Shown piece by piece: positions 17,286 to 28,276 of a stretch of 64,000 bases of DNA. Made by a program: the position numbers and the translations under genes. Position 1 is the stretch's first letter; each line of letters begins with the position of its first letter. Below the pieces are notes generated by a model. It saw only the letters and a list, made by a program, of their open reading frames with translations, ran no database searches and was not told the origin of the DNA. The DNA is from Actinacidiphila acidipaludis (GTDB lineage Bacteria; Actinomycetota; Actinomycetes; Streptomycetales; Streptomycetaceae), in NCBI RefSeq assembly GCF_019890725.1, contig NZ_JAINZZ010000012.1, forward strand, positions 62,001-126,000, given 5' to 3'.

Positions 17286-17993
17286 GTGGCAGCACCGCGC
17301 ACAGCGACTGATGACGGCGCACGCCCGAGCGGCGGCCGCGCCGCGGCAACCGTCCGCGGAACCGCCGCCGCACCTTCGCGCGCCGCGACCGCGGGCGCCG
17401 CAGGACGCCGTCAGCGCGAACGCTCCGACGCCACGGTGGAGGACCTGCTCGCCGCGGCCCGCGCACTGTTCGCCGCCGACGGCTACGCGGCGACCTCGCT
17501 CGACGCCGTGTGCGACCGCGCCGGCGTCACCAAAGGCGCGCTCTACCACCACTTCTCCGGCAAGCAGCAGCTGTTCGCCGCCGTCTACGCGCGAGAGCAG
17601 GACCTGCTCAACGCCCGCATCTCCGCGGCCTACCGCGAGGTGGCCGACGATCCGTGGGAAGCGGTGTACGAGGGCAGCCGCGCCTACCTGGAAGCGTCGC
17701 TGGACCCCGGGGTCCAGCGCATCACCCTGCTCGACGCCCCCGGTGCGCTCGGCTGGGAGGCCATGCACGAACTGGGCGTCAACTGCCGTGAGCTGACCCT
17801 GCGTGGAGTGGAACGGGCCATCAGACGCGGGGCGATCGCGCCGCGCGCCGCCGAACCGCTGGCCTCCATGCTGTACGGCGGGCTCAGCGAGAGCGCCATG
17901 GCGGTCGTGCGCTCCGAGGACCCCGAGACTGCGCTGGCCGAGTCCCTGGCCGGACTCCGGCTGATGTTCGACGCCCTCGCAGGCAAGGACTGA
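17286..17993 (+). CDS. TetR-family regulator, likely repressor of the divergent MFS exporter
   Basis: A 235-residue protein with an unusually long Ala/Arg-rich leader of about 45 residues, then the TetR helix-turn-helix (LFAADGYAATSLDAVCDRAG, then VTKGALYHHFSGKQQLF). The C-terminal domain has the TetR_C_33-like pattern EAVYEGSRAYLEASLDPGVQR with RITLLDAPGALGW. The GTG start has GGAGAG at proper distance. It is divergent from the exporter and followed after 3 nt by a second TetR gene. Confidence 0.9.
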   Translation: MAAPRTATDDGARPSGGRAAATVRGTAAAPSRAATAGAAGRRQRERSDATVEDLLAAARALFAADGYAATSLDAVCDRAGVTKGALYHHFSGKQQLFAAVYAREQDLLNARISAAYREVADDPWEAVYEGSRAYLEASLDPGVQRITLLDAPGALGWEAMHELGVNCRELTLRGVERAIRRGAIAPRAAEPLASMLYGGLSESAMAVVRSEDPETALAESLAGLRLMFDALAGKD

Positions 17994-18799: not shown

Positions 18800-21040
18800 A
18801 TGTCCCGTACCGCTCTGCGCATCTGCCCGCTCTGCGAGGCCACCTGCGGCCTCGAACTCACCATCGCCGAGAGCCGGGTCACCCATGCCCGCGGTGACGC
18901 CCTGGATGTCTTCAGCGCCGGGTTCATCTGTCCCAAGGGCGCCTCCTTCGGCCAGCTCGACGCGGATCCGGACCGCTTGCGGAAACCGCTGGTCCGGCGG
19001 GACGGACGGCTCGAAGAGGCCACCTGGGAGGAGGCGTTCGCCGCCGTCGCCGCCGGTATGGGCGCGGTCACCCAGGCGCACGGCGGTACGGCCGTGGGTG
19101 TCTTCCTCGGCAATCCCAATGTGCACACGGTCGCGGGCGGGCTCTACCCGGGACAGCTGATCGGCGCGCTGGGCACCCGCAGCGTGTTCACCGCCAGCAC
19201 GCTCGACCAGATGCCCAAGCACGTCTCCTCGGGCCTGCTCTTCGGCGACCCCAACGCGATCCCGGTACCGGACCTCGACCGCACCGACCATCTGCTGCTG
19301 ATCGGCGCCAACCCGTTGGTGTCCAACGGCAGTCTGGCGACCGCCGCCGACTTCCCGGGCAAGCTCAAGGCGCTGCGGCGGCGCGGCGGGCGGCTGGTGG
19401 TGGTCGACCCGCACCGCACCAGGACCGCTGCCGCCGCGGACCGGCATGTCGCCCCCCGGCCCGGTACCGACGCGGCGCTGCTCTTCGCACTGGTCCATGT
19501 CCTCTTCGCCGAGGGCCTGGCCGCCCCCGGCCCGGCCCTCACCTCACACCTCAGCGGAATGGCGGAGGTACGGGCGCTCGCGGCGGACTTCAGCCCGGAG
19601 ACGGTCGCCTCCTACTGCGACGTGCCGGCCGACGAGATCCGGGTCTTGGCCCGTGAACTGGCCGCCGCCGAGAGGGCGGTGGTGTACGGGCGGCTCGGCA
19701 GCACGGCGGTGGAGTTCGGTACCCTGGCCAGCTGGCTGGTCGACGTGCTCAACGCGCTCACGGGCAATCTGGACCGACCCGGCGGGGCGATGTTCCCGCT
19801 GTCGGCGACCGCCCGGGCGCCTCGCCCCGCCGCGCCGGGCAAGGGGTTCCGGACCGGCCGCTGGCACAGCAGGGTGTCGGGCCGGCCCGAGGTCAAGAGC
19901 GAGCTGCCCGCGGCCGTGCTCGCGGAGGAGATCGACACGCCGGGAGAAGGCCGGCTGCGTGCCCTGGTCGTCGTCGCGGGCAACCCCGTCCTGTCCGCGC
20001 CGGACGGTGACCGGCTCGACCGGGCCCTGGCCGGGCTGGACTTCATGGTCAGCGTCGACCCGTACCTGAACGAGACCTCGCGGCACGCGCACGTCGTGTT
20101 GCCGCCGCCTCCGCCCGCGCAGAGCGCGCACTACGACTTCGCGTTCTCCACGCTCGCCGTGCGCAACACCGTGCGGTACAGCCCGCCCGCGGTTCCGCCG
20201 GCCGAGGGAGTCCTCGACGAGCCGGAGATCATGGCCCGGCTGATCCTCGGGGTGCTCGGACAGGGCGGACCGGACGCGGATCCGGCGCTGGTGGACGCCC
20301 AGGCGATCCGGCACCGCCTGGACCGGGAGACCGCGGACCCGCACTCGCCGGTCCACGGCCGGGACGCGGCCGAGCTCGAGGCCGCGCTGACCGGCGCCAC
20401 GGGATACGAGCGCAGGCTGGACCTGATGCTGCGTCTCGGCCCGTACGGTGAGGGATTCGGGGCCGACCCGGACGGCCTCACTCTGGACGCGCTGCTGAGG
20501 CGTCCGCACGGGATCGACCTGGGCGCCCTGCGCTCGCGCATACCTGGTGTGCTGCGCACGCCCTCGGGCACCGTGGAGCTGGCGCCCGCGGCCGTCGCCG
20601 GGGATGTGCCGCGGCTGAGGGAGGCCGTCGCACGTGGTGGCGAGGGATCCGGGCTCGTTCTGATCGGGCGCCGCCACCTGCGCTCCAACAACAGCTGGAT
20701 GCACAACGTCCCCTCCCTGACCGGCGGCAGCAACCGCTGCACCGTGCAGATCCACCCGGAGGACGCAGCCCGGCTGGGGCTGACCGACGGAGCACAGGCC
20801 CGGATCAAGGGCGACGGCGGTGAGATCACGGCACCGGTGGAGATCACCGACGCGCTGCGGCCGGGCGTGGCCAGCCTGCCGCACGGGTGGGGCCACGATC
20901 GCGAGGGGACCCGGCTGACGGCGGCGGCACGGGAGCCTGGGGTCAACGTCAACCAGTTGCTGGACGGCAGCCGGATCGACCCGCTGTCGGGCACCGCGGT
21001 GCTCAACGGCTTCCCCGTCCAGGTGGAGGCAGCCGGGTGA
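18800..21040 (+). CDS. Molybdopterin-dependent oxidoreductase with an N-terminal 4Fe-4S motif
   Basis: A 746-residue protein of the DMSO reductase/formate dehydrogenase superfamily. Cys9, Cys12, Cys16 and Cys44 (CPLCEATC ... CPKG) form the 4Fe-4S site. The molybdopterin-binding core includes DHLLLIGANPLVSNGSLATA and the C-terminal domain has RSNNSWMHNVPSLTGG and LPHGWGH. At the position where NapA or FdhF carry a Cys or Sec ligand to Mo, the sequence reads TASTLDQMPK with no Cys, so Ser, Thr or Asp may be the ligand. No electron-transfer partner, chaperone or membrane subunit is nearby. It is probably soluble and cytoplasmic, with no Tat signal. Substrate unknown. Confidence 0.88.
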   Translation: MSRTALRICPLCEATCGLELTIAESRVTHARGDALDVFSAGFICPKGASFGQLDADPDRLRKPLVRRDGRLEEATWEEAFAAVAAGMGAVTQAHGGTAVGVFLGNPNVHTVAGGLYPGQLIGALGTRSVFTASTLDQMPKHVSSGLLFGDPNAIPVPDLDRTDHLLLIGANPLVSNGSLATAADFPGKLKALRRRGGRLVVVDPHRTRTAAAADRHVAPRPGTDAALLFALVHVLFAEGLAAPGPALTSHLSGMAEVRALAADFSPETVASYCDVPADEIRVLARELAAAERAVVYGRLGSTAVEFGTLASWLVDVLNALTGNLDRPGGAMFPLSATARAPRPAAPGKGFRTGRWHSRVSGRPEVKSELPAAVLAEEIDTPGEGRLRALVVVAGNPVLSAPDGDRLDRALAGLDFMVSVDPYLNETSRHAHVVLPPPPPAQSAHYDFAFSTLAVRNTVRYSPPAVPPAEGVLDEPEIMARLILGVLGQGGPDADPALVDAQAIRHRLDRETADPHSPVHGRDAAELEAALTGATGYERRLDLMLRLGPYGEGFGADPDGLTLDALLRRPHGIDLGALRSRIPGVLRTPSGTVELAPAAVAGDVPRLREAVARGGEGSGLVLIGRRHLRSNNSWMHNVPSLTGGSNRCTVQIHPEDAARLGLTDGAQARIKGDGGEITAPVEITDALRPGVASLPHGWGHDREGTRLTAAAREPGVNVNQLLDGSRIDPLSGTAVLNGFPVQVEAAG

Positions 21041-21071
21041 CCAGCGCGCGGCGGTGGCCCCTGGTCACATA

Positions 21072-21090
21072 AAACTAACAGCGTTAGTTT
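21072..21090. promoter_or_regulatory. TetR-type operator upstream of the aldehyde dehydrogenase gene
   Basis: AAACTAACAGCGTTAGTTT is a 19-nt inverted repeat (8-nt arms, 3-nt centre). The outer frame AAACTA-N7-TAGTTT recurs with identical spacing at 25105-25123 in the tetR/acyl-CoA dehydrogenase divergent promoter. The TetR encoded at 24432-25076 is the likely binder of both. Confidence 0.75.
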
Positions 21091-21132
21091 GGGCTCGTGA
21101 CGCAGAGCGGCGACGGTTCGGAGGGCAGCACG

Positions 21133-22581
21133 GTGGCGGACGGCACGGACAAGCAGCAGGTGGACGGCGCGCCCAGCGTCCACCAGGGCCGCGACGAGGT
21201 CTTCATCGGCGGCCGGTGGCGGCCGGCCGTGAGCGGGCAGCGGATCGACGTGGTCGACCCGGCGACCGAGCTGGTCATCGGCCAGGTGCCGGCCGGCGGC
21301 CCGCAGGACGTGGACGAGGCCGTCGCCGCGGCCCGGGCGGCGCTGCCCGCATGGGCAGCCACTCCGCCCGAGCGGCGTGCCGCGGTGCTGAGCGCCGCGC
21401 GTGACCTGATGGCCGCACGCCGGGAGGACGTCGCCGCCACGGTGGGGGCGGAGCTCGGCGCGCCGCCCCCGTTCGCCGCCGCCGTCCACACCGACCTGCC
21501 CACCGCGGTCATGGGCTCCTACGCGGCACTCGCCGCCGACCGCCCCTTCGAGGAGCGGATCGGCAACTCGCGGGTACTGCACGAACCGGTCGGCGTCGTC
21601 GGGGCCATCACGCCCTGGAACTACCCGCTGCACCAGATCGTCGCCAAGGTGGCCCCGGCGCTGGCGGCCGGTTGCACGGTGGTCCTCAAGCCCGCCGAGG
21701 ACACCCCGCTGGTCGCCCAGCTCTTCGCCGGGATCCTGGACGAGGCGGGACTGCCGGCCGGGGTGTTCAACCTGGTCACCGGACTGGGACCGGTGGCCGG
21801 ACAGGCGCTCGCCGAGCACCCGGGGGTGGACCTGGTGTCGTTCACCGGCTCCACGGCCGTGGGACGGCAGATAGGCGCGGCCGCCGGCGGCGCGGTCAAG
21901 CGGGTGGCCCTCGAACTGGGCGGAAAGTCCGCCAACGTGATCCTGCCGGGGGCGGACCTCGCCAAGGCCGTCAATGTGGGCGTGGCCAACGTCTTCGCCA
22001 ATTCCGGCCAGACGTGCAGCGCCTGGACGCGGATGCTGGTCGACGACGCCCGTTACGACGAGGCCGTGGAGCTCGCCACGGCGGCGGCCGCCAAGTACCG
22101 GCCGGGCGACCGGATCGGGCCGCTGGTCAACGCCAAGCAGCGTGAACGGGTGCGCGGGTACATCCGCTCGGGGATCGAGGAGGGCGCCCGGGTCGCGGCC
22201 GGCGGGCCCGAGGAGCCCGAGGGCATACCGACCGGCTACTACGTGCGGCCCACCGTCTTCGCCGACGTGCGGCCGGAGATGACCATCGCGCAGGAGGAGA
22301 TCTTCGGCCCGGTCGTCGTCCTCATCCGCTACCGGGACGAGGAGGACGCGCTGCGGATCGCCAACGGCACGGTCTACGGGCTGGCCGGGGCGGTGTGGGC
22401 GGCCGACGAGGACACCGCGGTCGCCTTCGCCCGGCGGATGGACACCGGCCAGGTGGACATCAACGGCGGACGGTTCAACCCCCTGGCGCCGTTCGGCGGC
22501 TACAAGCAGTCCGGAGTCGGCCGCGAGCTGGGTCCGCACGGCCTGTCCGAGTATCTGCAGACCAAGTCGCTGCAGTTCTGA
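21133..22581 (+). CDS. NAD(P)-dependent aldehyde dehydrogenase
   Basis: A 482-residue ALDH superfamily enzyme. [12 protein letters not shown] starts the N-terminal domain; [20 protein letters not shown] and [10 protein letters not shown] form the cofactor region; [10 protein letters not shown] has the catalytic Glu and [10 protein letters not shown] the catalytic Cys. The GTG at 21133 is preferred because GGAGGG stands 8 nt upstream; an in-frame GTG at 21097 would start 6 nt after the operator. It oxidises an aldehyde to the acid, probably the product of the alcohol dehydrogenase encoded 103 nt downstream. The operator at 21072-21090 suggests TetR repression. Confidence 0.92.
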
Positions 22582-22684
22582 GCCGGCCGCCGGTGTACCA
22601 GGGTTCGAACGGCCGACCCACCGCTCACGTCCCCGTCCCGTCGACCAGCCGATATGTCACCCGATACCGAGTCCAGGAGAGCCC

Positions 22685-23767
22685 GTGGTCCGCGCCGCCG
22701 TCCTGCCCGCCGTGAACGCCCCGCTGGCCGTCGCCGAGATCGAGTTGCCGGATCCCGGCCCCGGCCAGGTGCGGGTGCGTCTGGCCGCCGCCGGTGTCTG
22801 CCACTCCGACCTGTCGCTGTCCAACGGCACGCTGCGCCAGCCCGTGCCCGCGGTGCTGGGGCACGAGGGCGCCGGGACGGTGGTGGCGGTCGGCGAGGAG
22901 GTCGGTCATGTCGCGCCCGGCGACCGCGTGGTGCTGAACTGGGCGCCGGCGTGCGGCGAGTGCCACTTCTGCGGCCTGGGCGAGCCGTGGCTGTGCGCCA
23001 ACTCGGGAGCCGCGGCCGCGGCCCCCTACGCCACGCTGGCGGGCGACGGATCGGCCCTCTACCCGGGCCTCGGGTCCGCCGTTTTCGCGGAGGAGACCGT
23101 GGTGCCGGCGCGGGCCGTGCTCCCGCTGCCCGACGGGGTGCCGCTGACCGACGCGGCCCTGCTCGGCTGCGCAGTCCTCACCGGATACGGCGCGGTTCAC
23201 CACTCGGCGGCGGTGCGCCCCGGCGAGTCGGTGGCGGTCTACGGCGTCGGCGGGGTGGGGCTCGCGGTCCTGCAGTCCGCGCGCATCGCGGGTGCGGGGC
23301 GGATCGTCGCCGTCGATGTCTCTCCCGGCAAGGAGGAACTGGCGCTGGCGGCCGGCGCCACCGACTTCGTGGTGGCGGGCGACGACACGGCCAAGCAGGT
23401 CCGCAAGCTCACCGGAGGGCACGGCGCCGACGCCGCGATCGAGTGCGTGGGCCGGGCGGACACCATCAGGACAGCCTGGTCGTCCACCCGGCGCGGCGGC
23501 CGGACGACGGTGGTCGGCATCGGCGGCCAGGACCAGCAGGTGACTTTCACGGCGCTGGAACTCTTCTACTTCGGCCGGACGTTGTCGGGGTGCGTGTACG
23601 GCAACTGCGACCCAGCCCAGGACCTCCCCGTCCTTGCCGAACACGTACGTGCGGGCCGCCTCGATCTGTCCGCCATGGTCACCGACCGGATCGGCCTGGA
23701 CGGCATTCCGGACGCGTTCGCGGCCATGTCGGCGGGACGGGGCGGCCGCGCGCTGGTCGTCTTCTGA
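22685..23767 (+). CDS. Zinc-dependent alcohol dehydrogenase (MDR superfamily)
   Basis: A 360-residue medium-chain dehydrogenase. GVCHSDL holds the catalytic-zinc Cys, GHEGAGTV is the conserved His-Glu region, and CGECHFC with a later Cys forms the structural-zinc lobe. The Rossmann motif is VYGVGGVGLAVLQSA. Close relatives include class III-like and NDMA-type dehydrogenases acting on primary alcohols. With the aldehyde dehydrogenase in front it forms a two-step alcohol-to-acid route. The GTG start has GGAGAG just before it. Confidence 0.92.
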   Translation: MVRAAVLPAVNAPLAVAEIELPDPGPGQVRVRLAAAGVCHSDLSLSNGTLRQPVPAVLGHEGAGTVVAVGEEVGHVAPGDRVVLNWAPACGECHFCGLGEPWLCANSGAAAAAPYATLAGDGSALYPGLGSAVFAEETVVPARAVLPLPDGVPLTDAALLGCAVLTGYGAVHHSAAVRPGESVAVYGVGGVGLAVLQSARIAGAGRIVAVDVSPGKEELALAAGATDFVVAGDDTAKQVRKLTGGHGADAAIECVGRADTIRTAWSSTRRGGRTTVVGIGGQDQQVTFTALELFYFGRTLSGCVYGNCDPAQDLPVLAEHVRAGRLDLSAMVTDRIGLDGIPDAFAAMSAGRGGRALVVF

Positions 23768-23819
23768 CCGGCGCCCGCTGACAGGCGGCCGCCGGGTCAG
23801 CCCGTCCCGGTGACTCCCG

Positions 23820-24419
23820 TCAGTCCCCGTCGACCATCGCCAGCCACCGGGCGTGCGCCCCGCCGAAGGGGCCGGTGCCCCCGGCCACGGCGGCCATCAG
23901 CCAGGCGGCGGAGTCCTGCGCGGACGTGATGACGTCCGCCGGGTAGCCGTAGCGCACCTGGTGCTCGGCGAACTCGTCCTCGTCGACGAGCAGCGGCTCC
24001 GCGGAACCGCGCTTGCGCAGCACGTCCAGATCGAGGTCGATCATGGAGACCGTCTCGCGCGAGGTCCAGTCCGGCGGCGTGGTGATGTCGCAGTAGATCT
24101 CGGTGGTGCGCGGCGCGGCGTTGAAGCACGCGGTCCACCAGGCGTCGCGCGGGATGAGGATGACATGCGCCTCGGGCAGCGGGACGTCGGGGCCGTGGCC
24201 CTTGCGCATCACGCTGTTGGCCGGCAGTCCCAGCCAGACGCCGTGCTCGTCCTCGCCGAGCCGCCGCATCCGCAGGTTCCAGTGCAGGCTGCCGTCGTAC
24301 TTGTGGTAATCGACCTGGACGAGTCGGTCCGACCCGGCTTCCGCCCGTGACACCGGACGTCCGGCAGCGTCCGGGCTCTCCCGTTCGGCGGCCGCTTCCT
24401 TCTCCTGTTCGGTCGTCAT
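23820..24419 (-). CDS. DUF402 domain protein (predicted nucleotide phosphatase)
   Basis: A 199-residue protein. The first 30 residues are charged and disordered; the DUF402 fold follows, with YCDITTPPDW and the acidic metal-binding motif MIDLDLDVL, then DEDEFAEHQ. Characterised DUF402 proteins such as the FomD and SA1684-like families hydrolyse nucleotide diphosphates or related esters using divalent metal. It is separated from the TetR gene upstream by 12 nt on the same strand and is likely co-transcribed. The exact substrate is unknown. Confidence 0.85.
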   Translation of the reverse strand: MTTEQEKEAAAERESPDAAGRPVSRAEAGSDRLVQVDYHKYDGSLHWNLRMRRLGEDEHGVWLGLPANSVMRKGHGPDVPLPEAHVILIPRDAWWTACFNAAPRTTEIYCDITTPPDWTSRETVSMIDLDLDVLRKRGSAEPLLVDEDEFAEHQVRYGYPADVITSAQDSAAWLMAAVAGGTGPFGGAHARWLAMVDGD

Positions 24420-24431
24420 GCGGCCATGGTG

Positions 24432-25076
24432 TCAGTCCCGGGCGGCCGCGAGCTTCCGATAATGCAGTTCCAGCCCGTCCACCAGGGCCCGCAGGCCGGT
24501 CTCGAACGCGGCGTTGTCCACGCGTTCCGGGTGGCGGGACAGCAGATGCGCCTGCCCGAGGTGCGGGTAGTCGGCCGGATCGTACGCCTCGGCGTCGCCG
24601 ACGAAGCCGCCGGCGAAGGATCCCAGCGCGGACCCGGTGACGAAGAACCGCATCAGGGCGCCGATCCGGGTCGCCTGCGCCGCCGGCCAGCCGGCGCCGA
24701 CCATGCCGCCGAAGACGGCGTCGGCCATCCGCAGACCGGCCGGCCGCAGGCCGGGCCCGACCGCGAGGAACGGCACGATGTGCGGGTGCGCGGCCAGGGC
24801 GGCCCGGTAGGAGCGGCCCCAGTCCAGCAGGGCGGTCCGCCAGTCCCGACCGTCGCTGAACATCGACAGGTCGACCTGCCGCACCACCAGGTCCGCCGCC
24901 GCGTCGAGGATCGCCTCCTTGGTGGCGAAGTGGTTGTAGAGCGAGGGGCCGCTGACCCCGAGCTCCGCGGCCAGCCGCCGGGTCGACAGCGCGTCCAGCC
25001 CCTCGGTGTCGATGAGCGCGAGCGCGGCCGTCACGATGCGGTCGCGGCTGAGCAGGGGCTTGCGGGGGCGGGCCAT
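24432..25076 (-). CDS. TetR-family regulator, divergent from an acyl-CoA dehydrogenase
   Basis: A 214-residue regulator: HTH ALSTRRLAAELGVSGPSLYN, then HFATKEAILDAAADLV, followed by a TetR_C_11-like ligand domain (GRSYRAALAAHPHIVPFLAV). The start at 25076 (MARPRKPLLS) is the common one for this subgroup. The 19-nt inverted repeat at 25105-25123 lies between it and the acyl-CoA dehydrogenase, and a related copy lies before the aldehyde dehydrogenase gene, so it probably controls an alcohol/aldehyde/acyl-CoA regulon. The ligand may be an acyl-CoA; this is inference. Confidence 0.88.
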   Translation of the reverse strand: MARPRKPLLSRDRIVTAALALIDTEGLDALSTRRLAAELGVSGPSLYNHFATKEAILDAAADLVVRQVDLSMFSDGRDWRTALLDWGRSYRAALAAHPHIVPFLAVGPGLRPAGLRMADAVFGGMVGAGWPAAQATRIGALMRFFVTGSALGSFAGGFVGDAEAYDPADYPHLGQAHLLSRHPERVDNAAFETGLRALVDGLELHYRKLAAARD

Positions 25077-25104
25077 GCGGCACATAGTAGAGGCTGCCAC
25101 CAGA

Positions 25105-25123
25105 AAACTAGCGGTGGTAGTTT
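25105..25123. promoter_or_regulatory. TetR-type operator in the tetR/acyl-CoA dehydrogenase divergent promoter
   Basis: AAACTAGCGGTGGTAGTTT is a 19-nt inverted repeat centred between the starts at 25076 and 25153. The AAACTA-N7-TAGTTT frame is identical to the site at 21072-21090. Confidence 0.75.
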
Positions 25124-25152
25124 CGAAGTCGTGGAAAGGCCCGGGTACCGCC

Positions 25153-26301
25153 GTGAACCTTGAGCTGTCCGAGGAACAGGCCGCCGTCAAGGCGCTCGCG
25201 CGGGACTTCACCGACCGCGAGATCGTCCCGAACGCCGTCGCCTGGGATCGCGCCGAGAGCGTCGACCGGGCGATCGTGAAGAAGCTCGGCGCACTCGGCT
25301 TCCTCGGCCTGACCATCGCCGAGGAGTACGGCGGCTCCGGAGGCGACCACCTGGCCTACTGCCTGGTCACCGAGGAACTCGGCCGCGGCGACTCGTCGGT
25401 GCGCGGGATCGTGTCCGTCTCGCTGGGACTTGTCGCCAAGTCGATAGCGCACTGGGGGAGCGAGGAGCAGAAGCGGGCCTGGCTGCCGCGGCTCACCTCC
25501 GGCGAAGCGGTCGGCTGCTTCGGGCTGACCGAGCCCGGCACCGGCTCGGACGCCGCCAACCTCACCACCCGCGCGGTCCGGGACGACGACGCGTACGTCC
25601 TCTCCGGCAGCAAGATGTTCATCACCAACGGGACCTGGGCCGACGTGGTCCTGCTCTTCGCCCGCACCGGCGGCCCCGGCCACCGCGGCGTCAGCGCCTT
25701 CCTCGTGCCCACGGACACGCCCGGCCTGACCCGGCGCGAGATCCACGGCAAGCTCGGACTGCGCGGCCAGGCCACGGCCGAACTCGTCCTCGACCAGGTC
25801 CGGGTGCCGGCGGGGACCATGGTCGGACCCGAGGGCAAGGGCTTCTCGGTCGCGATGTCCGCGCTCGCCAAGGGGCGGATGTCGGTCGCCGCGGGCTGCG
25901 TCGGGATCGCCCAGGCGTGCCTGGACGCGGCCGTGGAGTACGCGGGCCAGCGCGAGCAGTTCGGCACCCCGATCGCCGGCCGCCAGCTCGTCCAGGAACT
26001 GCTCGCCGACATCGCCGTGGACGTCGACGCCGCCCGGCTGCTCACCTGGCGGGTGGCCGACCTCATCGACCGCGGGCTGCCCTTCGCCACCGAATCCTCG
26101 GTCGCCAAGCTGTACGCGAGCGAGGCCGCGGTGCGCTGCGCCAACAACGCGCTGCAGGTCTTCGGCGGCTACGGCTACATCGATGAGTACCCGGCCGGCA
26201 AACTGCTGCGCGACGCACGGGTGATGACCCTGTACGAGGGCACCAGCCAGATCCACAAGCTGCTCATCGGCCGGGCGCTGACGGGGGTCTCGGCCTTCTG
26301 A
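25153..26301 (+). CDS. Acyl-CoA dehydrogenase
   Basis: A 382-residue enzyme of normal length. Signatures: FGLTEPGTGSDAANLTTRA (FAD-binding signature 1), KMFITNGTWADV, and near the C-terminus GGYGYIDEYPAGKLLRDARV with LYEGTSQIHKLLIGR, where the Glu is the expected catalytic base. It introduces a trans-2,3 double bond into a short or branched acyl-CoA. The GTG at 25153 is chosen since upstream in-frame starts overlap the operator and the divergent tetR gene. It is likely repressed by that TetR. Confidence 0.92.
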   Translation: MNLELSEEQAAVKALARDFTDREIVPNAVAWDRAESVDRAIVKKLGALGFLGLTIAEEYGGSGGDHLAYCLVTEELGRGDSSVRGIVSVSLGLVAKSIAHWGSEEQKRAWLPRLTSGEAVGCFGLTEPGTGSDAANLTTRAVRDDDAYVLSGSKMFITNGTWADVVLLFARTGGPGHRGVSAFLVPTDTPGLTRREIHGKLGLRGQATAELVLDQVRVPAGTMVGPEGKGFSVAMSALAKGRMSVAAGCVGIAQACLDAAVEYAGQREQFGTPIAGRQLVQELLADIAVDVDAARLLTWRVADLIDRGLPFATESSVAKLYASEAAVRCANNALQVFGGYGYIDEYPAGKLLRDARVMTLYEGTSQIHKLLIGRALTGVSAF

Positions 26302-26477
26302 CGTTCCGGGCGGCCATCGATGGGCAGCCGCTCGACCCGATGCGCATGGGGCCCTGTGCGGGGGCCCTGCCCCGGCGAAAGCCACGAGATCCCGCAGCCC
26401 CGCAGCCCCGCAGCCCCGCGCCCCCGCGGCTCCGCCCGCGCTCGACGTGGCCCCGGCGTGAGCCCGCACCCCACTCG

Positions 26478-26630
26478 TCAGCCCACCGGCAACGGATGCC
26501 CGGGCGCCGGCGCCGCGGCGATGCGTGAGTCGACCTCCTGCGCGGTGTCGCCGTCCGGAGTGGCGGGCGTCTTGGTCATGGAGAGAGCGATCGACGGCCC
26601 GGTCGCGGGCAGGTACGCCTGCAGGTGCCG
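26478..26630 (-). pseudogene. Possible C-terminal remnant of a degraded gene
   Basis: About 50 codons on the minus strand read HLQAYLPATGPSIALSMTKT and onward to a TGA at 26478. Almost every codon ends in G or C and the amino acid mix is ordinary, which is how real genes in this window look, while the frame upstream of it turns Arg-rich and unlike protein. No start or ribosome binding site is apparent. It could be the tail of a gene whose front was deleted. I do not recognise the family. Confidence 0.3.
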
Positions 26631-26997: not shown

Positions 26998-27048
26998 GTT
27001 CCCGGGTAGGGTGTGACCCTGTCAACCGAACGGTGGGAGGAGCACGCG

Positions 27049-27663
27049 ATGACTGCGGAGGCGGCACCAGGCGAAGCCTGGGGCGACATCACCCCCGACG
27101 CCGCGAGGCGGCTGGTGACCGCCGCGGTGCAGGCGTTCGCCGAGCGCGGCTACCACGCCACCACCACGCGCGACATCGCGGGCCGGGCCGGTATGAGCCC
27201 CGCCGCGCTCTACATCCACTACAAGACCAAGGAAGAGCTGCTCTACCAGATCAGCAAGGTCGGCCACCAGCGCTCGCTGGCCATGCTCACCGAGGCGCGG
27301 GAGGCGGAGGGCACCGCCGCGGAACGGCTGGCCACCGCGGTGCGGGTGTTCGTCCGGTGGCACGCCGAGCACCACACCACCGGACGCGTGGTGCAGTACG
27401 AGCTGGGCGCGCTGGCGCCCGAGCACTACACCGAGATCGTGGACCTGCGGCGGCAGAGCGAGGACGCCATCCGGTCGATCATCGGGGACGGGGTGGCCGA
27501 CGGCGAGTTCGACGTGCCGGACGTCTCCGGGACGACCCTGGCTGTGCTGTCGCTCTGCATCGACGTGGCCCGCTGGTTCAACCCGAACGGCCGCAGGACG
27601 CCCGACGAGGTCGGCGCGCTCTACGCCGACCTCGTGCTGCGGATGGTGCGGCAGACCGCGTGA
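27049..27663 (+). CDS. TetR-family regulator
   Basis: A 204-residue protein: HTH AERGYHATTTRDIAGRAGMS, then PAALYIHYKTKEELLYQIS, and a TetR_C_17-like domain (VFVRWHAEHHTTGRVVQYEL). This subgroup often controls acyl-CoA metabolism. ATG 27049 is chosen because GGGAGGAG precedes it; GTG 27013 lacks a ribosome binding site. The matching motifs at 26984 and 28305 suggest control of itself and of the MaoC hydratase. Confidence 0.9.
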   Translation: MTAEAAPGEAWGDITPDAARRLVTAAVQAFAERGYHATTTRDIAGRAGMSPAALYIHYKTKEELLYQISKVGHQRSLAMLTEAREAEGTAAERLATAVRVFVRWHAEHHTTGRVVQYELGALAPEHYTEIVDLRRQSEDAIRSIIGDGVADGEFDVPDVSGTTLAVLSLCIDVARWFNPNGRRTPDEVGALYADLVLRMVRQTA

Positions 27664-27702
27664 CCCGCGTAACCCGCGTGACCGACGTGACCCGCGTGAA
27701 CC
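27658..27702 (+). repeat. Five copies of a 9-nt tandem repeat across the tetR stop codon
   Basis: Units of the form GTGACCCGC (variants GTAACCCGC, GTGACCGAC) follow each other from the tetR stop codon region into the intergenic space. No hairpin or protein role is visible; slippage-prone DNA is the simplest reading. Confidence 0.55.
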
Positions 27703-27799
27703 GTCGGACCGCCTGCCCCCTCGGAAGGCTCGACCCGTTTGAAGGCTCGACCCGGCTGGAGCGCCAGGCCCCGGCGCCCGGCCCCCCGGCCCGCGCCGC

Positions 27800-28276
27800 T
27801 CAGAGGTAGAAGCGGGCCACCGTCTCCGCGACGCACACCGGCTTGTCGCCGCCCTCGCGCTCGATCGTCACCCGGGTCACGAGCTGCACGCCGCCGCCAG
27901 CCTCGGTCAGCTCGGCGACCACGGCGGTCGCCCGGAGCCGCGAGCCCACCGGCACCGGCGCCGGGAAACGCACCTTGTTGACGCCGTAGTTGACGCCCAT
28001 CCGGATGCCTTCGACGCGGAAGAGCTGCGGGGTCAGTGACGGGATCAGCGACAGCGTGAGGTAGCCGTGCGCGATGGTGGTGCCGAACGGACCCTGCGCC
28101 GCACGCTCGGGGTCGACGTGGATCCACTGGTGGTCACCGGTGGCCTCGGCGAACTGGTCGATCCGCTTCTGGTCGATCTCCAGCCAGTCGGTCCAGCCCA
28201 GCTGCTCGCCGACGGCGGCACGCAGCTCGTCGATCGAGGCGAAGACGCGGGGCTGGTGCGGCACGGCCTGCGGCAT
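27800..28276 (-). CDS. MaoC-like (R)-specific enoyl-CoA hydratase
   Basis: A 158-residue hot-dog protein. The hydratase-2 motif is complete: FAEATGDHQWIHVDPERA contains the Asp-His pair, followed by FGTTIAHGYLTLSLIP. It is expected to hydrate trans-2-enoyl-CoA to (R)-3-hydroxyacyl-CoA. Length and motif match stand-alone NodN/MaoC proteins of actinobacteria. The promoter carries the same 14-mer motif as the nearby tetR gene, so regulation by that TetR is likely. Confidence 0.93.
   Translation of the reverse strand: MPQAVPHQPRVFASIDELRAAVGEQLGWTDWLEIDQKRIDQFAEATGDHQWIHVDPERAAQGPFGTTIAHGYLTLSLIPSLTPQLFRVEGIRMGVNYGVNKVRFPAPVPVGSRLRATAVVAELTEAGGGVQLVTRVTIEREGGDKPVCVAETVARFYL

Follow-up and report, generated by a model that had tools for sequence, protein, structure and literature searches.

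A TetR-type regulator of Actinacidiphila acidipaludis and its predicted tet-operator-like sites before short-chain alcohol, aldehyde and acyl-CoA genes

The window studied here is a stretch of 64,000 nucleotides from the Actinacidiphila acidipaludis contig NZ_JAINZZ010000012.1 (positions 62,001 to 126,000; assembly GCF_019890725.1). It contains the gene of a TetR-type regulator, which lies together with genes for an aldehyde dehydrogenase (ALDH), a zinc-dependent alcohol dehydrogenase (ADH), a DUF402 protein and a short-chain type acyl-CoA dehydrogenase (ACAD), and two copies of the palindrome AAACTA-N7-TAGTTT are found before ALDH and between tetR and ACAD (Table 1). A sequence-only reading of this DNA had placed the two palindromes and the tetR gene at exactly the coordinates of Table 1. 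It also held that no acyl-CoA ligase is encoded between the palindromes, and indeed only ALDH, ADH, the DUF402 protein and the TetR are encoded there. From this it had proposed a small regulon of one TetR, possibly serving an unusual alcohol.

Table 1. Genes, predicted operators and predicted promoters at the tetR locus, with the further site before a thiolase gene
Feature	Coordinates	Strand	Remarks
Predicted promoter of ALDH-ADH	21061-21090	+	-35-like CTGGTC (21061-21066), 18 nt, -10-like TAGTTT (21085-21090)
Operator 1 (predicted)	21072-21090	+	AAACTAACAGCGTTAGTTT; 8-bp inverted repeat with 3-bp centre; exact motif match; upstream of ALDH
ALDH	21133-22581	+	revised start GTG 21133, 482 aa; with the start at 21097, Pfam Aldedh 4e-158
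Zinc-dependent ADH	22685-23767	+	behind ALDH on the same strand; Pfam ADH_N, ADH_zinc_N
DUF402 protein	23820-24419	-	Pfam DUF402; 12 nt behind tetR
TetR-type regulator	24432-25076	-	TetR_N 7e-14, TetR_C_1 2.7e-13
Predicted promoter of tetR, leaderless	25089-25084	-	TACTAT, 7 nt, ATG 25076
Predicted promoter of ACAD	25094-25123	+	same geometry as for ALDH-ADH: CTGCCA (25094-25099), 18 nt, TAGTTT (25118-25123)
Operator 2 (predicted)	25105-25123	+	AAACTAGCGGTGGTAGTTT; between tetR and ACAD; exact motif match
ACAD, short-chain type	25153-26301	+	382 aa; Pfam ACAD domains
Third full operator (predicted)	C45:65412		before thiolase; exact match to AAACTWNCNNNGNWAGTTT

The draft genome (8,480,215 bases in 170 contigs) holds exactly two copies of AAACTA-N7-TAGTTT, both of them in the window, and none of a reversed control motif; frequent occurrence by chance was not found. 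There is no third copy in the 64-kb window even when up to two mismatches are allowed, and 100 shuffles of the window gave no match at all. Operator 2 sits inside the 76-bp gap between tetR and ACAD. The refined operator reads AAACTANC-NNN-GNTAGTTT. Searching our genome with the refined motif AAACTWNCNNNGNWAGTTT at up to two mismatches yields seven sites against none for the control, and three of these are exact, namely both window sites and one before a thiolase gene.

For the comparison with relatives 100 stretches from 98 genomes were used, most of them belonging to the best-ranked tetR matches, so that the set is biased towards tetR-bearing genomes. A site with at most two mismatches is present within 250 nt upstream at 96 of the 98 tetR loci, its end being 24-29 nt from the tetR start in 78 of the 96. 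At the same mismatch threshold a site precedes ALDH in 74 of the 77 loci which have this gene and enough upstream DNA, and elsewhere in the fetched DNA (1,318,102 bases) only three stray sites occur (L235, L237, L240). In the 76 loci holding both genes the distance from tetR to the ALDH start varies between 3.2 and 7.7 kb, yet the site stays with ALDH. All 35 genomes of the own genus carry one or two exact copies of AAACTA-N7-TAGTTT and none of the control. In the whole family 110 of 200 genomes (own included) have an exact match, and the reversed control matches in five. The exact matches in genus g14, among those listed, all have other centres, and the two which were followed adjoin other TetRs. 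The family count therefore overstates the regulon. Judged by this distribution, the AAACTA-N7-TAGTTT site is best regarded as a true operator.

Genus g9 (63 genomes) includes members with and without a close tetR. The exact motif is found in 55 of 57 genomes with a close tetR and in none of the six without one (Fisher p 4e-7, not corrected for kinship), in which the best tetR match reaches only E 2e-15 to 1e-28. Both exceptions, G133 and G161, which possess tetR and lack the exact motif, have a copy with one mismatch before ALDH. An ALDH orthologue (71-73% identity) is retained by four of the six tetR-less genomes and by one genome of genus g7, and the upstream regions of these five ALDH genes contain no site, the best match having 4-6 mismatches of 12. 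Likewise, no site was found at three remoter ALDH genes (61% identity) or at two relatives of ACAD (63-64%) from genomes without a close tetR. Since the site is gone where tetR is gone although ALDH is kept, it seems to be tied to tetR and not to ALDH expression as such.

The outer bases of the operator are nearly fixed, in part owing to their use in selecting the sites. The bases at -2 and +2 played no part in that selection, yet all 170 sites have C at -2 and G at +2. Position -6 of the tetR-adjacent site is C or T, and +4 is A or T. Position +3 is C in all 96 tetR sites and in 71 of the 74 ALDH sites, so the A which tet operators have at +3 is not the base found here. In TetR only two side chains, Arg28 and Gln38, form hydrogen bonds to bases, at +2 and +3 (PMC7102968), and the operator tetO2 reads TCCCTATCAGTGATAGAGA (PMC11686294). 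Each of the 98 proteins of the comparison set has the equivalent of Arg28, and each has Gly at residue 38. The G at +2 that marks tet-operator-like sites, read by Arg28 in TetR, is present throughout. A structural alignment to the TetR/operator complex 1qpi gave the same five-residue numbering offset, residue 38 being Gly43 of our TetR. Covariation was studied in 71 named loci (L065-L135), some of them from genomes already counted, of which 60 have a site no more than 260 nt from tetR. Gly38 is accompanied by C at +3, in one half-site or both, in 50 of 51 loci; Ala38 occurs with T at +3 in nine of nine and with C in none (Fisher p 7e-10, again uncorrected for kinship). A change between Gly and Ala at residue 38 appears to go with a change of base +3.

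The thiolase site recurs in front of 16 of 17 close orthologues in the own genus (own genome included, one miss) at positions -22 to -174, 13 times with at most one mismatch and three times with two. None of 13 more distant thiolases has it, and a close thiolase orthologue is absent from 14 of the 31 genomes that were searched. Furthermore, a site with two mismatches lies 20 nt before a glutaryl-CoA dehydrogenase (GCDH) gene of our genome (PDB 3sf6, E 8e-182). Three other two-mismatch sites (L005, L245, L246) were not counted, as a simple open reading frame list, used without family search, gave no recognised acyl-CoA gene there. The gene of a MarR-type regulator (L003 1518-2000) ends right at the thiolase operator in the same direction, and an interaction is possible.

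With the refined motif, matches were obtained in 31 of 34 other genomes and for the control in none of the 34. The 12 fetched sites away from the tetR locus are located before thiolase (four), GCDH (three) and ALDH (three) or beside other TetRs (two). Two genera contribute four genomes in which a single unit of ACAD and thiolase lies behind the site; a short-chain dehydrogenase comes next in at least three of them. In a genome from a further genus, thiolase stands behind the site instead of ACAD. In Nocardia an acyl-CoA ligase adjoins this tetR in four of 12 loci, one being a partial match. Six loci of Micromonosporaceae (five from Dactylosporangium, one from a metagenome-assembled genome) have ACAD, ALDH and ADH behind one site; five other loci of this family have ALDH-ADH behind tetR, four of them with a second, one-mismatch site there.

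An exact site, AAACTAACTTTGTTAGTTT, was seen in one relative away from known targets (G130:C165:30065-30083). Two look-alikes were set aside as probably belonging to other regulators: AAACTAACTAAGTAAGTTT (L347/G020, L355/G001) lies beside TetR paralogues of 39-41% identity, and AAACTACTGGCTCTAGTTT (L353/G176, L354/G196) beside paralogues of about 41%. The AAACTAACTAAGTAAGTTT loci possibly represent a sister switch with another centre; the gene divergent from the paralogue in L347 encodes a member of the amino-acid permease family.

The predicted promoters overlap the sites. TAGTTT, the predicted -10 element of ALDH, is the right half of operator 1 and fits the Streptomyces -10 pattern TANNNT. 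CTGG precedes the ALDH site by 11 nt in 67 of the 74 loci and by 12 nt in three more. At ACAD the offsets -11 to -8 are C, T, G and C in 32, 30, 31 and 30 of 34 own-genus loci, and this CTGC element is not conserved in g9 and g14. The TACTAT of tetR is kept in 32 of 34 own-genus loci at each column. A generic sigma-70 promoter and terminator scan of 20900-26500, which is uninformative for this organism, returned none of either. For ALDH, GTG 21133, 42 nt past operator 1 and preceded by GGAGGG at 21120-21125, is more likely the start than GTG 21097. An in-frame start at least 20 nt past the site exists in all 74 site-bearing ALDH loci, while a start 4-9 nt past it exists in only five of the 74, and a leaderless ALDH transcript from GTG 21097 was set aside on this account, a leaderless start being retained for tetR alone.

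ALDH matches PDB 3b4w (7e-123), and ACAD matches 5lnx (2e-101), the mitochondrial short-chain ACAD 8sgs (3e-99) and the butyryl-CoA dehydrogenase 1buc (5e-89). The PDB comparison places the ADH among class I/III ADHs; it stays below the NCBIfam cut-offs for S-(hydroxymethyl)mycothiol dehydrogenase (297 vs 513 bits) and for NDMA-dependent ADH (292 vs 440 bits). The DUF402 gene adjoins tetR in 29 of the 34 own-genus loci and in none of 40 from genus g9; it is probably part of the tetR transcription unit and only a putative member of the regulon. Behind ACAD follow a second tetR gene (TetR_C_24) at 27013 and a gene for a MaoC-type hydratase (27800-28276). At more than 50% identity these neighbours are kept in 117 and 121 of 180 loci, respectively, a count in which some genomes appear twice. 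The window search found no operator copy at 27013-28276; the hydratase, itself without operator, is a plausible partner in the pathway. Further tetR genes of the window lie at 17286 and 17997. A molybdopterin oxidoreductase gene (18800-21040) ends 31 nt before operator 1; of the 34 tetR loci fetched from the own genus, 26 have a relative.

From the distribution of the sites we consider it very probable that TetR 24432-25076 represses, via both window sites, a short-chain alcohol/aldehyde/acyl-CoA regulon which includes the thiolase and, weakly, GCDH. For this TetR we infer binding, repression, promoter positions, inducer and substrate as follows. A TetR dimer would bind the tet-operator-like site, which at ALDH-ADH and at ACAD would cover the spacer and the -10 box of the promoter, while operator 2 would also cover the -35 region of the promoter of tetR itself. 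In this way bound TetR could block all three promoters. The thiolase would be held off likewise, and GCDH would belong to the regulon more weakly. Release might be brought about by a metabolite of the pathway, our guess being a short aldehyde or a short-chain acyl-CoA. The presence of thiolase and GCDH in the regulon suggests that it serves to degrade alcohols, aldehydes and acyl-CoAs of short chain length (about C4-C5), and the enzymes would fit the oxidation of a short alcohol to the acid plus short-chain beta-oxidation. GCDH and butyryl-type ACADs both yield crotonyl-CoA and thiolase splits acetoacetyl-CoA, as would be expected in this organism too.

Several observations weigh against this regulon or its operator. 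At two mismatches the loose motif AAACTA-N7-TAGTTT gives six sites in our genome and the control also six; therefore the loose motif is informative only if matched exactly or nearly so. No site is found at L184 and L243 among the tetR loci and at L153, L181 and L242 among the ALDH loci, and 11 loci of the broader set of 71 lack a site near tetR. Two of the tetR-less g9 genomes (G098, G151) have no close ALDH either and tell nothing about the site. The GCDH site has decayed in many relatives: of 30 own-genus cases nine have at most three mismatches, nine have four and 12 at least five. Moreover, the covariation at residue 38 clusters by clade, the Ala group consisting of eight Micromonosporaceae and one Saccharopolyspora, which means few events. 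The right half-site could also be conserved as a -10 box.

This last point leads to the least probable of the alternatives, that the palindromes are due to chance or are merely conserved promoter sequence. TAGTTT does fit a -10 box, but the left half and C-2/G+2 are conserved without being promoter elements, the shuffles gave nothing, and only three strays occur in the 1.318 Mb of fetched DNA. It is also very unlikely that the operators are real and belong to another regulator, for instance one of the TetRs at 17286, 17997 and 27013. Three more tetR genes are indeed nearby, the one at 27013 being a conserved neighbour. However, the narrow spacing of the site to the start of tetR 24432-25076, the loss of the site together with this gene (co-absence was scored for this tetR alone) and the change of its residue 38 with base +3 all point to the product of this gene. 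A similarly low probability is given to a TetR that binds the sites and activates, or mainly controls itself. Some TetR-family proteins do spare distant divergent neighbours and AtrA activates, but the five tested Streptomyces TetRs with gaps below 200 bp all repress (PMC3511530), and the gap to ACAD is well within that range. The overlap of the site with the predicted -10 boxes of ALDH and ACAD would, in addition, be a repressing position.

A regulon of two sites, limited to the window genes and to one unusual alcohol, is somewhat less remote and still improbable. It could draw on the two exact genome matches of the loose motif and on the lack of a ligase between the operators, but the third exact refined-motif site, conserved before the thiolase, the weaker GCDH site and the Nocardia loci with a ligase next to this tetR speak against it. 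What is supported of the original proposal is one TetR with two operators and the joint control of ALDH-ADH and ACAD, in view of the conservation over genera and the joint absence of tetR and site. Its extent was drawn too narrowly, given the thiolase and GCDH sites and the recurrence of the same genes in other genera. The unusual alcohol deduced from the missing ligase is not supported, as the regulon is dispersed and a ligase can stand beside this tetR. The repressor model with the wider short-chain regulon turns two palindromes into a defined regulon of a TetR that is kept in Actinacidiphila, Streptomyces and relatives and has counterparts in Nocardia and Micromonosporaceae. With this model, putative targets (ALDH, ADH, short-chain ACAD, thiolase, GCDH) can be named, together with the operator positions and the residue of the protein that mutation should address. 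We regard it as a well-supported regulon of a common type, whose operator is instructive.

In the titles and opening lines of abstracts that open-access searches returned, no description of this regulator or its operator was found, most subscription journals being outside the scope of that search. The predicted structure of TetR 24432-25076 (pLDDT 93) matches TetR structures at Z 17-20, among them 1qpi (Z 17.1, 2.5 A over 186 residues). The TetR_N domain, the all-helical TetR fold and the predicted palindromic operator at its own promoter (96 of 98 loci) place it in the TetR family. For Rv3574 (KstR) a relationship is not indicated by the NCBIfam KstR model, which gave no match to our TetR at E 0.001. 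AtuR from Pseudomonas aeruginosa, whose pathway is that of terpenol, comes from another bacterial group and is likened by description only. Rv3574 is described as a TetR-type repressor of an actinobacterial lipid-degradation regulon, in mycobacteria and of large size (PMC1995591), and AtuR as a TetR-like repressor of its divergent neighbour (PMC3511530). With Z 20.2 (2opt), ActR of Streptomyces coelicolor belongs to the best structural matches, level with 2g7g (20.4), but it represses actAB, a putative export pump (PMC3511530), whereas the targets here would be catabolic enzymes.

The closest comparison is with TetR/tetO2 of Tn10. Both systems share TetR_N plus TetR_C_1, the same fold, the divergent layout and an operator of 19 bp, aligned in register and built around CTAnC...GnTAG, and the equivalents of Arg28, Pro39, Tyr42 and His44 are present in all 98 regulators studied here. 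The natural TetR/tetO variants described here could help to work out the TetR recognition code and to build orthogonal repressors for actinomycetes. A further-reaching idea, which we consider doubtful, is that this lineage represents a natural, never drug-related variant of the operator code, in which residue 38 (Gly, Ala, or the Gln of resistance TetRs) sets +3 and a dispersed regulon brings butyryl-type, glutaryl and alcohol/aldehyde routes together at crotonyl-/acetoacetyl-CoA, and that tetracycline TetR/tetO branched off later from metabolic switches of this sort in actinobacteria and adapted to drugs. The score against the curated tetracycline TetR model PRK13756 is only 90.3 bits with a cut-off of 265, and therefore the protein is not a tetracycline repressor. 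Asn82 is a tetracycline-contact residue of TetR, and in an alignment to class A TetR its position is occupied by Trp here. Gln38 of the Tn10 protein is replaced by Gly, or by Ala in some families, and the operator has mostly C (or T) at +3 instead of A and the outer bases AAA/TTT instead of TCC/AGA. Finally, the divergent gene encodes an acyl-CoA dehydrogenase and the putative targets are catabolic, while tetracycline TetR faces the efflux gene tetA.

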